From assembly GCF_000381085.1 (NCBI RefSeq), contig NZ_KB905899.1:1550001-1614000 (forward strand): 64,000 bases of DNA, read 5' to 3'. The position numbers were made by a program, and so were the translations under genes. How positions within the stretch are numbered: position 1 is the first letter of the stretch; every line of letters starts with the position of its first letter. Below, one piece after another: positions 21,860 through 60,802 of this stretch. Under the pieces are notes generated by a model. The model did no database searches. It was given only the letters and a program-made list of their open reading frames with translations, and was not told the origin of the DNA. Source of the stretch: Thiomicrorhabdus arctica DSM 13458. Its GTDB lineage: Bacteria; Pseudomonadota; Gammaproteobacteria; Thiomicrospirales; Thiomicrospiraceae.

Positions 21860-22468
21860 CAACAATTTACATAATTTTAGTAAAATCAGTAATTTCTTAT
21901 TGCCGAAGCTAACTTAAACAGTATAAACATTACAATTGCCAGATTTTAAGAAAACCTTGCCAAAAACTATTCGCGTATTCTAGCAACCTTTTCCCCGAAT
22001 ACAAGCAATTCTTTATACTCTTTTGCTTTTGTTTACTTCTAACCAAGAGTAACTTTAAAAGAGTGCCGGTATTTCAACTAACATCACACTAGAACGTTTC
22101 GCAAAGAAATGGTTTAGAAGCTCGTTTATCATGATGGTTTAGGCTTAGAACCCTATGTTGACTCAATCAACTTAAGAGGCTCTGGCTACGCTTTTACTGT
22201 ATTCAAGATCATAAACATACAGAATATTGTCATACCTCTATTTTTAACGGATCAATTGGATAAAACAAAACACCTTGCATTCAACCGCGGCATCATTTTG
22301 ATTTGCCATTCAAACTCTATTAGAAACCATTATATATAAGCGGCCACGGAAAATTTCATTTCTGGGCACTCTCAATCATCCATATAAAATTACCATGCCT
22401 GGTAAAATAACGTCAACTCAAACTATTATAGCCCTATGCAACCGTTATATAAGAGACTGTTTAATACT
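21860..22468. other. Intergenic region between the tRNA operon and bioA
   Basis: About 600 bases without a recognised gene. It holds divergent upstream regions for the tRNA operon and bioA, one variant copy of the dispersed palindrome (22392-22403) and a possible TATTAT -10 box at about 22422. A frame open for about 70 codons at 22130-22339 on the plus strand has no start codon and no similarity I recognise; it may be a gene remnant. Confidence 0.5.
22392..22403. repeat. Dispersed palindrome, variant copy 1
   Basis: ACCATGCCTGGT, one change from the core ACCAGGCCTGGT. It lies 65-75 bases upstream of the chosen bioA start. Confidence 0.7.
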
Positions 22469-23779
22469 ATGAATTCGATCAAACCAAACCATTGGGACAA
22501 CCTTCTCGCATTTGACCAACAGCACGTCTGGCATCCATACGCCAAAATACCCAATCCAAACCCAGTGATTGGTGTGACGAAAACGCAGGGCTCAATACTT
22601 ACATTGGCAGATGGTTGTGAGGTGATTGATGGTATGTCTTCCTGGTGGGCGGCCATTCATGGCTACAACCACCCCTTTATTCAACAAGCCATGCATAATC
22701 AGATTGAAATTATGCCCCATATTATGTTTGGAGGATTAACACACCAACCCGCAATTGAGCTGGCTAAAAGGTTGATCCATTTAACCCCGCCAGGCCTGGT
22801 CAAAGTATTCTTCTCAGATTCAGGCTCGGTTGCAATGGAAGTCGCTATCAAAATGGCTCTGCAATTCTGGATAAGTAAAAACAAGCCCGAAAAAAACAGA
22901 CTATTGACCGTCAGAAATGGTTATCACGGCGACACCTTTGCCACGATGGCAACGAGCGATCCTGATAATGGTATGCACCATATATTCAACGACAATCTTG
23001 CTCACCACATTTTCGCCCCTGCGCCAGAGATGGGGTTTAGCATAGAATCGGACAACTCGGATATTCAGGCTTTTGAGGCTTTACTAGAAGCACACCACAC
23101 CTCTATAGCAACTGTCGTGATTGAACCGATTGCCCAAGGTGCTGGTGGAATGCGTTTTTATCGTCCCGACTACCTTAACCGAGTCAGAATGTTATGTACT
23201 CAATATGATGTACTCTTGATTATCGATGAAATTGCCACGGGGTTTGGCCGAACTGGCAAGCTCTTTGCCTGTGAATGGGCGGATATCGCTCCCGATATCA
23301 TGTGCGTAGGCAAAGCTTTGACGGGTGGTTACATGACATTAGCGGCGACACTTTGCTCCCAAACCATTAGTGACACGATAAGTAATGGCAACCCAGGATT
23401 ACTAATGCACGGTCCAACCTTTATGGCCAACCCTTTAGCCTGTGCCACCGCAATCGCAAGCATTGATCTACTGCTAGACTCTCCTTGGCAGCAAAACATT
23501 CAGCGAATTGAACGACACTTGCAAGCCACACTATTGCCGCTTAAAGACATTGAAGGTGTAGCGGATACACGCGTATTAGGTGCGATTGGCGTGGTTGAAT
23601 TGGAACGAGACGATTTAGGTCCAACGATACAAGCTCTAGGCATAAAAAATGGTATTTGGTTAAGACCGTTCGGAAAACTTATCTATACCATGCCCGCTTT
23701 TAATATTCCGCAGACACAACTTACCTCGTTGATAAACGGCATGATCAAAGCCATTCAAAGCACACTAAATGCAACTTAA
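22469..23779 (+). CDS. bioA: Adenosylmethionine-8-amino-7-oxononanoate aminotransferase
   Basis: BioA (436 aa from this start), the PLP enzyme converting KAPA to DAPA with S-adenosylmethionine as amino donor in biotin synthesis. Diagnostic segments are HVWHPYAK near the N-terminus, DGMSSWWAAIHGYNHP, SDSGSVAMEVAIKMAL, NGYHGDT, and IDEIATGFGRTGKLFACE. The PLP lysine lies in CVGKALTGGYMTL. The ATG at 22469 (MNSIKPNHWD) is preferred because a probable -10 box sits just before the earlier ATG at 22436. Neither ATG has a strong ribosome binding site. It stands apart from other biotin genes; bioD is at 37.8 kb. Confidence 0.93.
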   Translation: MNSIKPNHWDNLLAFDQQHVWHPYAKIPNPNPVIGVTKTQGSILTLADGCEVIDGMSSWWAAIHGYNHPFIQQAMHNQIEIMPHIMFGGLTHQPAIELAKRLIHLTPPGLVKVFFSDSGSVAMEVAIKMALQFWISKNKPEKNRLLTVRNGYHGDTFATMATSDPDNGMHHIFNDNLAHHIFAPAPEMGFSIESDNSDIQAFEALLEAHHTSIATVVIEPIAQGAGGMRFYRPDYLNRVRMLCTQYDVLLIIDEIATGFGRTGKLFACEWADIAPDIMCVGKALTGGYMTLAATLCSQTISDTISNGNPGLLMHGPTFMANPLACATAIASIDLLLDSPWQQNIQRIERHLQATLLPLKDIEGVADTRVLGAIGVVELERDDLGPTIQALGIKNGIWLRPFGKLIYTMPAFNIPQTQLTSLINGMIKAIQSTLNAT

Positions 23780-23808
23780 TATCATTTAGGACAACAAGAG
23801 ATTGAACC

Positions 23809-24198
23809 ATGAATTATTTTTTAGATGCTCTCAAAAACTATGTGACCTTCACGGGCCGGGCCACCCGCCAACAGTATTGGATGTACATTCTGTTTTACAT
23901 CGTCTTTTATTTTGTCGCCGTCATGCTCGACATTAATTTAGGGCAATACGACAAAGAGAACATGAGCGGCTTTATCAGTACCGTTTATACCTATGGCTTA
24001 TTATTACCAACGATTGCAATACTCGCCAGACGACTGCATGATATCGGACGTAGTAGCTGGTGGATTTTGTTAATCATCATTCCGGTGATCGGCTCATTGG
24101 TCATTCTAATTTTTACGTTAATCGACAGTCAGAAAGAAGACAACAAATATGGTGTAAGCTTGAAATACGCAAACACAACAGAAGCTGATCAGGAATAA
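23809..24198 (+). CDS. DUF805 family inner-membrane protein
   Basis: A small membrane protein (129 aa) of the DUF805 (YhaH/YhaI-like) family, whose biochemical function is unknown. The family pattern is visible. An aromatic N-terminus (YFLDALKNYVTFTGRATRQQYW) precedes hydrophobic segments at about residues 25-42, 60-75 and 84-105, with ILARRLHDIGRSSWW between the last two. The end DSQKEDNKYG is also typical. It starts 29 bases after bioA, with a GAGATT-type site, and is probably co-transcribed with it. No functional link to biotin is evident. Confidence 0.85.
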   Translation: MNYFLDALKNYVTFTGRATRQQYWMYILFYIVFYFVAVMLDINLGQYDKENMSGFISTVYTYGLLLPTIAILARRLHDIGRSSWWILLIIIPVIGSLVILIFTLIDSQKEDNKYGVSLKYANTTEADQE

Positions 24199-24274
24199 TT
24201 AACTAAAACCCAATCATGCAGCCAGCAAACATCCAACCTATTATGGATAAAATACCCGCGTGCCTTGAAAAACA

Positions 24275-59535: not shown

Positions 59536-59770
59536 TCGGTATTCCTCAGTTTAGAGTGTTGCAGAGCAACAAAAGTTTAATATTAAATTTTCCATTCCAT
59601 TTTCAATCGCTCAAAAATGGAACAGAAAACATAATCAGAGATTACACATTCAAGAATGGAATTTGTGCGTTCAGTCGTGCTGGCAATTCAAGGCGGGCAG
59701 AGGGAATATGCAAGTGCACATGACCGATAACCAACGAAGCAGTGTCGGCGCTAATGAGCGCACAAAACCA

Positions 59771-60769
59771 TTACTTGCCTACGTGCTCTACAACTCTCAT
59801 CATGTTACATGTATAGCCGTACTCGTTGTCATACCAAGCGACCACTTTAACGAAAGTAGTATCTAAAGCGATACCTGCTTTTGCATCAAAGATAGATGGA
59901 CGAGAATCACCACGGAAATCTGTAGAAACGTTTGCTTCTTCAGTATAACCAAGAACGCCAGCCATAGACCCTTCAGAAGCCGCTTTCATCGCTGCACAGA
60001 TCTCTTCATAAGTGGCTTCTTTCTCAAGTTCAACCACTAAATCTACAACAGAAACATCAGAAGTAGGTACGCGGAAAGCCATACCCGTCAACTTACCGTT
60101 TAACTCAGGAAGAACAACACCGACCGCTTTAGCCGCACCGGTTGATGATGGAATGATATTTTCTAGAATACCACGTCCACCACGCCAATCTTTCATAGAT
60201 GGACCATCTACCGTTTTTTGAGTAGCGGTTGCAGCATGAACTGTCGTCATAAGACCACGTTTAATCCCGAAGCTGTCATTAAGTACTTTAGCAACTGGCG
60301 CAAGACCGTTCGTTGTACAAGACGCTGCAGAAACAATTGCTTCACCTTTATATTCGTTATGGTTAACACCATAGACGAACATTGGAGTGTGATCCTTAGA
60401 AGGCGCAGACTGAACTACTTTCTTAGCACCCGCATCAAGGTGAGCCTGACATGACTCTTCTGTTAGGAAGAAACCAGTACATTCAATTACTAGATCAGCA
60501 CCAACATCAGACCATGCTAGGTCAGCAGGGTTACGCTCTGCAGTAATACGGATTGTTTTACCGTTAACCACAAGGTTACCGTCAACAACATCAACCGTTC
60601 CGTCAAAACGACCGTGTACCGAATCGAATTTAAGCATGTATGCTAGGTATTCAGGATCAAGTAGATCATTGATCGCTACTACTTCGATGTTTTTGAAATC
60701 TTTAGCCGCGGCACGGAAAGCCATACGACCGATACGACCGAAACCGTTAATACCAACTTTAATAGTCAT
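59771..60769 (-). CDS. gap: Glyceraldehyde-3-phosphate dehydrogenase, type I
   Basis: GapDH (332 aa). NAD(P)-binding [14 protein letters not shown] is at the N-terminus. Asp35 in VAINDLLD suggests NAD preference, though Calvin-cycle enzymes can differ. The catalytic cysteine is Cys151 in [17 protein letters not shown]. It ends [23 protein letters not shown] lies nine bases upstream. It lies after tkt, with an exact dispersed palindrome in between. Confidence 0.97.
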
Positions 60770-60790
60770 TGAGTTTTACTCCAAATAATG

Positions 60791-60802
60791 ACCAGGCCTG
60801 GT
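60791..60802. repeat. Dispersed palindrome, exact copy
   Basis: ACCAGGCCTGGT in the tkt-gap intergenic space, about 22-33 bases upstream of the gap ATG and followed by another small palindrome CTAGGCCTAG. Confidence 0.85.

Follow-up and report, generated by a model that had tools for sequence, protein, structure and literature searches.

The window analysed here is a 64-kb stretch of the Thiomicrorhabdus arctica DSM 13458 genome that contains, among genes confirmed by Pfam, cbbQ, tkt, gap, pgk, pyk and fba, as well as a SAICAR synthetase gene followed by one for a BioD-like protein. Dispersed among these genes is a 12-bp palindrome, ACCAGGCCTGGT, whose exact and near copies are listed in Table 1. 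The original prediction reported eight exact copies, and all eight are present. It also claimed an excess over chance, and this holds: sites with two or fewer mismatches number 16 in the window against 1.19 expected, and the maximum in 100 shuffles was 5. Its list of six variants stands except for a site at 38533, which has three mismatches and is unconvincing, and it lacked the near copies at 22789 (one mismatch), 38321 (two) and 54120 (two).

Table 1. Copies of the 12-bp palindrome in the 64-kb window
Feature	Position	Strand	Context
Exact palindrome	24280..24291	.	convergent intergenic; 11-base perfect arms (AAATGACCAGGCCTGGTCATTT); terminator-like, - strand
Exact palindrome	28408..28419	.	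intergenic, co-directional genes on either side; terminator-like on both strands
Exact palindrome	31233..31244	.	short gap between two - strand ORFs
Exact palindrome	37861..37872	.	12-base arms and T-run; SAICAR synthetase gene/bioD-like gene gap
Exact palindrome	51284..51295	.	cbbQ/VWA-protein gene gap; terminator-like
Exact palindrome	54689..54700	.	within thioredoxin-TPR gene, nt 611
Exact palindrome	58317..58328	.	pyk/pgk gap
Exact palindrome	60791..60802	.	tkt/gap gap, immediately upstream of gap
One-mismatch copy	22392..22403	.
One-mismatch copy	22789..22800	.	absent from the earlier list
One-mismatch copy	28778..28789	.
One-mismatch copy	34672..34683	.
One-mismatch copy	50177..50188	.	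centre of 17-pair hairpin; terminator-like
Two-mismatch copy	58301..58312	.	next to the exact 58317 copy
Two-mismatch copy	38321..38332	.	possibly chance
Two-mismatch copy	54120..54131	.	possibly chance

All but two of the exact copies had been called intergenic; we find 54689 to be the sole clearly genic one. The 37861 copy lies 9 bases upstream of the ATG that starts the BioD-like protein (MTGTDTDVGKTY) and falls within the ORF only when translation is taken to begin at an earlier ATG (genes were called with a simple script of our own, and their start positions are uncertain). Pfam gives AAA_26 for this protein, and the bio locus said to be touched by the motif is thus BioD-like at most, while the cbb and glycolytic loci are confirmed by the Pfam assignments above. 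The reported lack of copies in the ribosomal-protein region is correct for 1-22 kb, though uninformative alone.

The motif is real and is iterated throughout the genome. The 2.55-Mb source genome (G000) contains 333 copies of ACCAGGCCTGGT and none of its reversed control, and a 364-kb sample of it has 47 where 0.01 are expected. Chance as its origin is thus rejected by the window shuffles, the genome count and the sample expectation alike, and the near-chance genome count that the original prediction named as telling against it was not found. Counting in related genomes, also suggested there, shows a nearly all-or-none distribution among 62 genomes of the Thiomicrospira/Thiomicrorhabdus/Hydrogenovibrio group: 84-718 copies in 27 genomes, 0-6 in 31 and 16-38 in 4, and the copy counts set against the tree indicate that loss was uneven among close relatives. 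A scan of contigs for close pairs, which detects only genomes with two copies 31 or fewer bases apart, gave 37 stretches; those named to genus are all Thiomicrospira, Thiomicrorhabdus or Hydrogenovibrio, and two come from a MAG that bears the label Gammaproteobacteria. Two copies are also present in a viral contig of 68% GC, which was judged a chance match. The library searched gave no paper on the 12-mer and no literature joining "DNA uptake sequence" with Thiomicrospira.

Some of the low-copy genomes of the family carry other words (60 genomes were covered by these counts and by the Pfam searches below). The palindrome ACCGGCCGGT is present 1,025 times in G006 and no more than 15 times in each of the other 59 genomes, and RCAGGCCTGYTCA has 157-208 matches, both strands counted together, in G003, G026 and G027 and no more than 33 in any of the remaining 57. 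G000 and the rest of the 12-mer carriers have a palindromic word, but samples of three Hydrogenovibrio-group genomes (G038, G039 and G044) contain an asymmetric word, CCCARCCTGGYAGATTTT. It occurs as CCCAGCCTGG in G038 (15 in 115 kb) and as CCCAACCTGG in G039 (17 in 115 kb) and G044 (8 in 55 kb), each genome using one letter and never the other. The next base is C or T without exception, and exact AGATTTT then follows in 12, 12 and 6 cases, respectively. In seven other genomes counted CCCARCCTGG is found 0-2 times per genome. The arm CCTGG-Y-N-R-N-TTT is common to the 12-mer and the asymmetric word, and the latter forms five close inverted pairs, two of them tail to tail. The asymmetric word is absent from the tkt-gap and pyk-pgk intervals of the three genomes that use it, so there was no in-place replacement of the palindrome there. 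No clear further word emerged from 24-95 kb of each of the low-copy genomes G004, G009, G018, G022 and G024, amounts in which a rarer word could escape (the gapped search covered G004, G009 and G022). Word counts and tree together show related spellings in related species, and the different spellings probably belong to one system.

The 12-mer extends to a loose 24-bp consensus, AAANYGACCAGGCCTGGTCRNTTT, and no conserved flank was found beyond 24 bp. Each of the three palindromic spellings contains GGCC and has a T-tract 10-12 bp away from the dyad, although in G056 and G037 this tract is weak or displaced. Exact copies outnumber one-mismatch copies by 47:25, 156:52 and 196:47 in the three large samples (G000, G001 and G006), and the opposite is true of G029, with 10 exact and 14 one-mismatch copies in 60 kb. 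Isolated half-sites are barely enriched in the large samples (11 vs 5.6, 21 vs 12.5 and 29 vs 22.9 expected).

The original prediction's phrase "highly iterated palindrome" is apt as a description, and a short palindrome iterated genome-wide, with a taxon-specific spelling, recalls cyanobacterial HIP1 (PMC4390886). Might the motif then be kept, as HIP1 is, with an orphan DNA methyltransferase, here one methylating GGCC or another part of the palindrome? The families PF00145, PF01555 and PF02086 have matches in 21, 19 and 8 of the 60 genomes, but none in G000, and all three are missing from 12 motif-rich genomes (G000, G005, G006, G012, G028, which is 86% complete, G029, G037, G040, G056, G058, G060 and G061). 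The carriers share none of these three families, and the asymmetric word lacks palindromic symmetry. A HIP1-type motif fits poorly, and we regard the methylation motif that had been proposed as improbable. A REP/BIME-like element spread by a RAYT transposase would also give short, taxon-specific, partly intergenic palindromes, and Y1_Tnp (PF01797) is found in 32 of the 60 genomes and once in G000; however, it was not found in ten motif-rich genomes (G006, G036, G037, G040, G041, G043, G052, G053, G058 and G060), many copies are genic, and flank conservation ends at 24 bp. This origin fits poorly, and we give it hardly any credence.

The copies lie in genes as well as between them: 15 of 47 are genic in G000, 69 of 156 in G001 and 115 of 195 in G006 (25 bases at stretch ends were excluded in this analysis, hence 195 and not the 196 of the intactness count), or 32-59%. 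Among gaps, the convergent ones have the highest density of copies, 4.8-9 times that of the divergent ones, which have the lowest. Co-directional copies are nearer the stop in 15 of 21 cases in G000 and 41 of 52 in G001. Both biases would suit an intrinsic terminator or other 3'-end RNA element, one of the roles first proposed, but G006 shows no stop bias (29 of 54). Longer hairpins occur at some intergenic copies (arms extended by at least 6 bases in 2 of 31, 7 of 82 and 3 of 79 in G000, G001 and G006), and four copies in the window are terminator-like (Table 1). Terminator-like sites number 23 at 42-61.9 kb, about 2 sd above the 14.9 (sd 4.2) of shuffles, but 14 at 22-41.9 kb, where shuffles give 17.5. 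Flank pairing exceeds expectation at two positions of 71 copies (48 vs 34.7 and 35 vs 20.7) and, for the genic copies of G001, at one (32 vs 22). On the other hand, genic copies have a flank preference similar to that of intergenic ones, their perfect arm extension does not exceed that of shuffles in G001 or G006 (it does so slightly in the 15 G000 copies), and Rfam gave no match at any window copy. Paired arms with a T-run after the stem are not a general property: by our own rule 0 of 15 genic and 2 of 31 intergenic copies are terminator-like in G000, 0 of 69 and 3 of 82 in G001, and 7 of 115 and 4 of 79 in G006. Because genic flanks are kept and arm pairing is not in excess in the two larger samples, such a function is disfavoured for most copies, and as a general explanation we hold it to be very improbable.

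The same low density in divergent gaps disfavours a regulator site, another of the original proposals. The 24-bp dyad symmetry and the conserved copy near gap are what the operator of a specific transcription factor controlling bio, cbb and glycolytic genes could look like, but the sites number in the hundreds, and a pgk-gap site was found in none of 41 genomes. Divergent gaps hold 2, 7 and 10 copies in G000, G001 and G006 where 6.7, 18.3 and 20.2 are expected by length, so promoter-bearing gaps are not enriched; by gap number the depletion is smaller (2 vs 3.9 and 7 vs 10.9) and is not seen in G006 (10 vs 9.0). An ordinary operator likewise fits poorly and is very doubtful, though the reader of the motif may be a nucleoid-type protein.

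The main rival to the interpretation we favour is in fact of that type, a dimeric chromosome-organising or global DNA-binding protein that would bind chromosome-wide and have been lost in some species. Noc, SlmA and MatP are the model for such a binder; their sites, too, are palindromes repeated along the chromosome, numbering in the tens and with regional bias. Mostly intact palindromes with nearly independent arms would fit a protein of this kind, as would the spacing of roughly one helical turn between T-tract and dyad. Some positions are also kept across genera. Of four other genomes with the cbbQ and VWA-protein genes adjacent, two (G011 and G012) have an exact copy in the gap, G029 has one with one mismatch, and G026 has none; the interval holding the 50177 copy has an exact copy in G011, G012 and G029 and none in G026. 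Among five thioredoxin-TPR orthologs the 54689 copy is exact in G005 and G011 (whose genes are 68-70% identical), has one mismatch in G029 and is lost in G012 and G028, and the pyk-pgk interval (58301/58317) has two exact copies in G001, G005, G011, G012 and G029. This positional conservation is also compatible with a fixed function.

Spacing says less. Copies per 20 kb of G001 are more even than chance (dispersion 0.42 over all 37 distinct bins; the values for parts of the data are 0.19 in 25 sampled stretches and 0.79 in 15 bins of the first 300 kb), as are the gaps between copies in G037, but in G000, G036 and G006 the spacing is not distinguishable from random, and G006 reaches a dispersion of 0.39 only after post hoc removal of two low stretches. 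Even spacing was dropped as main evidence because it is inconsistent between genomes. Copy clusters (53-56 kb in G000 and 815 kb in G036), considered as pointers to the binder's gene, gave no candidate. There are hundreds to a thousand sites here, and the sampled stretches, viewed without reference to ori and ter, show no obvious regional bias; about 1,000 differently spelled sites in G006, an asymmetric word in one clade and uneven loss among close relatives are hard to reconcile with a protein that has a fixed job. We consider a chromosome-organising protein unlikely, but a serious contender.

The reading that we think probable is that the motif is a DNA uptake or self-recognition signal that works like the DUS and USS, in a mostly palindromic form read by a symmetric protein. 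Uptake had been among the original suggestions and is now the best supported of them, by the dialects, the genic and intergenic copies, the USS-like word and, in a single stretch, the scarcity of copies near conjugation genes (20 kb of G006 with one copy against a mean of 7.8). As with the Neisseriaceae DUS (PMC3630211, PMC1852404), one short word recurs hundreds of times (the DUS, hundreds to thousands), much more often than chance would give, with genic as well as intergenic copies and with related spellings in related species; the inverted pairs of the asymmetric word recall the DUS/USS pairs of terminators (PMC1852404). The short core and following AT-rich tract of CCCARCCTGGYAGATTTT resemble the Pasteurellaceae USS, although the USS (PMC12616744) has two AT regions further downstream rather than one adjacent T-tract, and the palindromic spellings have a T-tract on both sides.

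We propose that a DNA-binding receptor of the competence machinery would read CCTGG-Y-N-R-N-TTT. In most carriers the word would be mirrored into a 24-bp palindrome and read by a symmetric (dimeric) receptor, and one Hydrogenovibrio-group clade would have retained the right arm alone, behind CCCAR. Fragments bearing the word would be preferentially taken up and recombined, copies would accumulate by molecular drive wherever the sequence tolerates them, a switch in receptor specificity would reset the whole genome to a new spelling (a dialect), and loss of specificity would let copies decay. ComEC (PF03772) is present in 55 of the 60 genomes, including G000; it occurs as well in genomes for which we found no motif, and the carrier G015 (82% complete) gave no match, so carriers cannot be told apart by their competence genes. 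Several points count against uptake. Known DUS and USS are non-palindromic, the DUS being a short asymmetric word where ours is mostly a 24-bp palindrome, and we know of no earlier palindromic uptake signal. One-mismatch copies are fewer than intact ones in the three large samples, whereas the DUS counts quoted in PMC3630211 run the other way, and ComP_DUS, the Neisseria receptor family, exceeded the cut-off in none of 60 genomes. Half-sites are hardly enriched, even spacing is not consistent from genome to genome, the divergent gaps of G006 are not depleted when counted by number, the asymmetric word is missing from the two intervals named above, and our searches turned up no report of natural transformation in these genera.

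Discussion of uptake-sequence specificity usually centres on two bacterial families. We put at about an even chance the broader claim that there is family-wide self-DNA recognition outside the Neisseriaceae and Pasteurellaceae, with a word that is a perfect palindrome inside a 24-bp site read by a symmetric receptor, has a USS-like one-arm asymmetric form in sister species and differs in spelling between genomes at up to about 1,000 sites. Should a chromosome protein prove to be the binder, its site set would be unusually dense and fast-changing. If the uptake reading is true, this would be a third family with uptake-sequence specificity, in free-living autotrophs, and with several spellings in close species, apparent losses, and symmetric and asymmetric forms, it would be directly testable how uptake signals arise (by molecular drive or by selection) and how word and receptor co-evolve.

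The eight exact copies of the dispersed 12-base palindrome (the 12-mer) that the original prediction claimed for the window are all present where it placed them, and sites with two or fewer mismatches number 16 there compared to 1.19 expected. Counting the 12-mer genome-wide and in relatives, as had been proposed, gave 333 exact copies in the 2.55-Mb genome that contains the window (G000; the window spans bases 1,550,001-1,614,000 of contig 1), 0 copies of the reversed pattern, and 84-718 copies in 27 of 62 genomes of the family, with 0-6 in 31 and 16-38 in four. A 364-kb sample of G000 contains 47 copies, where dinucleotides predict 0.01. 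The 32 genomes with the window's own genus label include 10 rich, 18 poor and 4 intermediate ones. A scan of a named genome collection for close pairs (copies separated by no more than 31 bases) found 37 stretches; two are from one MAG labelled Gammaproteobacteria, and all those with a genus name are Thiomicrospira, Thiomicrorhabdus or Hydrogenovibrio.

When 71 G000 copies are symmetrised over both sides, the 12-mer is followed by C, a purine (A or G, 95%) and any base, with T at 10-12 from the dyad (the symmetry centre), and the full-site consensus is AAANYGACCAGGCCTGGTCRNTTT. Copies inside genes have a similar but weaker flank preference. Perfect extension of the arms is raised in intergenic copies (1.35, 1.63 and 1.20 in G000 and the relatives G001 and G006, compared to 0.80, 0.91 and 1.00 when shuffled) because some of them are embedded in longer hairpins; the genic values are 0.87 versus 0.59 shuffled (G000, n=15), 0.39 versus 0.57 (G001, n=69) and 0.53 versus 0.61 (G006, n=115). 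Pairing exceeds expectation at two single flank positions among the 71 G000 copies (48 versus 34.7 and 35 versus 20.7) and at one among the 69 genic G001 copies (32 versus 22). The two arms vary almost independently of each other. On the whole the pattern is the trace expected from a symmetric DNA-binding protein, a minority of copies having become part of hairpins. Copies with 0/1/2/3 mismatches number 47/25/31/114 in G000, 156/52/39/155 in G001 and 196/47/113/757 in G006 (one-mismatch expectations 0.38, 0.75 and 4.45), and unpartnered half-sites are only about 1.3-2 times expectation, so in these three large samples the site is mostly whole and nearly perfect. Smaller samples gave exact to one-mismatch ratios of 16:10 (G011), 20:5 (G056) and 9:2 (G037), but 10:14 in G029. 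Seven of the 25 one-mismatch copies in the G000 sample carry T in place of C immediately right of the dyad (GGCC to GGTC), and the next C is never changed; in the G001 sample this change is seen in 0 of 9 one-mismatch copies.

Other genomes carry different words. G006, which has the window's genus label and 0 copies of the 12-mer, contains 1,025 copies of ACCGGCCGGT. Of the 60 genomes searched, the remaining 59 have no more than 15 each, and reversed controls reach 19. RCAGGCCTGYTCA has 164, 157 and 208 matches in G003, G026 and G027, and next highest 33 in G014, where both strands are summed and a fully symmetric site is thus counted twice. Many of the 33 ACAGGCCTGTTCA places in G014 lie about 70-260 bases from contig starts, on many contigs, which suggests an unresolved repeat or an insertion sequence carrying the word. 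Aligned on the dyad, the palindromic spellings share T at 10-12, and position 8 is mostly a purine; among 12-mer genomes the T-tract is present in G001, G011 and G029 and weak or shifted in G056 (20 copies) and G037 (9 copies).

Three genomes without the palindrome that form one clade in our tree (G038, G039 and G044, sampled over 115, 115 and 55 kb) have an asymmetric word: CCCAGCCTGG 15 times in G038, and CCCAACCTGG 17 times in G039 and 8 times in G044, the sister letter being found 0 times in each sample. Without exception the word is followed by C or T, with exact AGATTTT coming next in 12, 12 and 6 cases, respectively. The right-hand portion of the word, CCTGG-Y-N-R-N-TTT, equals the 12-mer's arm, T-tract spacing included; CCCARCCTGG occurs 0-2 times in each of seven other genomes (60-500 kb per genome). 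G038 and G039 each have two inverted pairs spaced by no more than 60 bases and G044 has one; of these five, two are arranged tail to tail and three in the opposite orientation. Inverted uptake-sequence pairs of this kind are described from terminators of Neisseria and Pasteurellaceae (PMC1852404). With its T-tract and close inverted pairs, the word resembles the uptake signal sequence (USS) of Pasteurellaceae. The genome-wide respellings speak against the main rival to an uptake role, that a chromosome-organising protein binds the sites, which we consider less likely.

Several other repeats are listed in the table below. K-mer counts in G038 were dominated by its 318-base unit, which reads like the repeats of a large surface protein; the G012 inverted repeats form a further dispersed element that may be MITE-like; and AAAAGTCGGGGA could be an iterated word of the G048 lineage's own.

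Positions of individual features in the window and in stretches read from relatives
Feature	Genome	Location	Occurrence
One-mismatch copy inside 17-pair perfect hairpin near cbb genes, terminator-like on both strands	G000	window, 50164-50201	
Genic copy in thioredoxin-TPR gene	G000	window, 54689	
318-base unit, head to tail	G038	L058, 1-8600	about 27 repeats
Short inverted repeats, ends GAGACCTTTGC...GCAAAGGTCTC; k-mers also in G024	G012	L116, 4929-19000	several copies within 20 kb
AGGGGTAAGGCGAG, an unrelated iterated word	G044	L192, L208, L209	six in 55 kb
AAAAGTCGGGGA, in a 61% GC relative without the palindrome	G048	L141-L142	six in 40 kb

Among 22 motif-rich genomes (at least 84 copies) in which the glycolytic cluster was read, 17 have an exact or one-mismatch site between tkt and gap and 13 have one between pyk and pgk; in genomes with 0-2 12-mers (G038, G039 and G044 included, G006 left out) the numbers are 0 of 14 and 1 of 15. 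The pgk-gap interval has a site in 0 of 41 genomes. G006 carries its own spelling between tkt and gap, and two of G003, G026 and G027 have a site in each of the two intervals. The asymmetric word is absent from both intervals in G038, G039 and G044, each of which has one about 1 kb past fba. The thioredoxin-TPR copy is exact in G005 and G011 despite 68-70% gene identity and conservation of only 1.4-1.6% of the gene's 12-base windows; G029 has it with one mismatch, and G012 and G028 have lost it. Several lineages thus retain the sites as DNA sequence. In the alignment parts listed, low-copy relatives have different sequence at the site positions. Four glycolytic proteins from 40 genomes (1,738 columns) gave a tree with support of only 34-70% at several backbone nodes. 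On it the 12-mer is present in 22 tips, the asymmetric word and each of the other two spellings are in one place, and low-copy genomes form separate groups (G018/G019/G024/G025; G009/G010/G022/G031; G045; G048; and G002 inside the G003/G026/G027 group). On the simplest reading the 12-mer would be old, with several losses and respellings, although the tree does not prove direction.

Copies occur both in genes and between them: in samples with 81-84% coding sequence, genic copies are 15 of 47 (G000), 69 of 156 (G001) and 115 of 195 (G006), with 1, 5 and 1 edge copies left unclassed. For these genomes, in the same order, convergent gaps hold 1.17, 3.66 and 2.49 copies per kb and divergent gaps 0.13, 0.47 and 0.52. 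The divergent counts of 2, 7 and 10 are depleted relative to the length expectation (6.7, 18.3 and 20.2) and less so relative to the number of gaps (3.9, 10.9 and 9.0; no depletion in G006). Between co-directional genes, the upstream stop is the closer end for 15 of 21 copies in G000 and 41 of 52 in G001, but for only 29 of 54 in G006. We read this distribution as tolerance, not promoters. One 20-kb stretch of G006 has a single copy (mean 7.8), with TraC/TraG/TraD-type conjugation genes among the 10 of its called proteins scanned, and a second low stretch has 3. G001 spreads its copies over 20-kb bins more evenly than a Poisson process would (dispersion 0.19 for 25 stretches, 0.79 for 15 bins of the first 300 kb, 0.42 for 37 distinct bins combined). 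Gaps in G037 are likewise more even than random (CV 0.64 versus 0.78-1.24), and spacing in G000, G036 and G006 is indistinguishable from random. In G001 there are more pairs closer than 60 bp than expected (8 versus 2.5, random range 0-6).

Among the families searched in 60 genomes no receptor candidate was found: ComEC is in 55, motif or no motif (not found in the carrier G015), and the ComP_DUS receptor family is above cut-off in 0. C5, N6/N4 and D12 methyltransferases occur in 21, 19 and 8, with none found in G000 and all three missing from twelve motif-rich genomes; Y1 transposases occur in 32, including G000, with no hit in G006 or in nine further motif-rich genomes. In the literature searched no paper contains the 12-mer or joins "DNA uptake sequence" to Thiomicrospira. 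CCAGGCCTGG occurs in papers, none of those among the matches listed being by title on bacterial genome motifs, and matches for natural competence in Thiomicrospira or natural transformation in Hydrogenovibrio were off-subject by title. For Thiomicrospira and palindromes, the sections of PMC6501319 consulted hold nothing on such a motif, and of five palindromic uptake-signal papers among the matches listed (PMC4390886, PMC12616744, PMC1852404, PMC5217627, PMC1939737), the four searched for the name Thiomicrospira do not mention it.

The palindromic form, intactness and deep positional conservation of the word are unlike the published DNA uptake sequence (DUS, Neisseriaceae) and USS, as described in parts of PMC3630211, PMC12616744 and PMC1939737, so we do not class it as a proven member of either. 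An uptake-type motif, one of several options in the original prediction, fits the combined evidence best: spellings differ among close relatives, copies are both genic and intergenic, their density is low in promoter-type gaps, one conjugation-gene stretch is nearly empty, an asymmetric USS-like relative of the word has a T-tract and forms close inverted pairs, and ComEC is near-universal. The word is thus a candidate that probably works like a DNA uptake signal.
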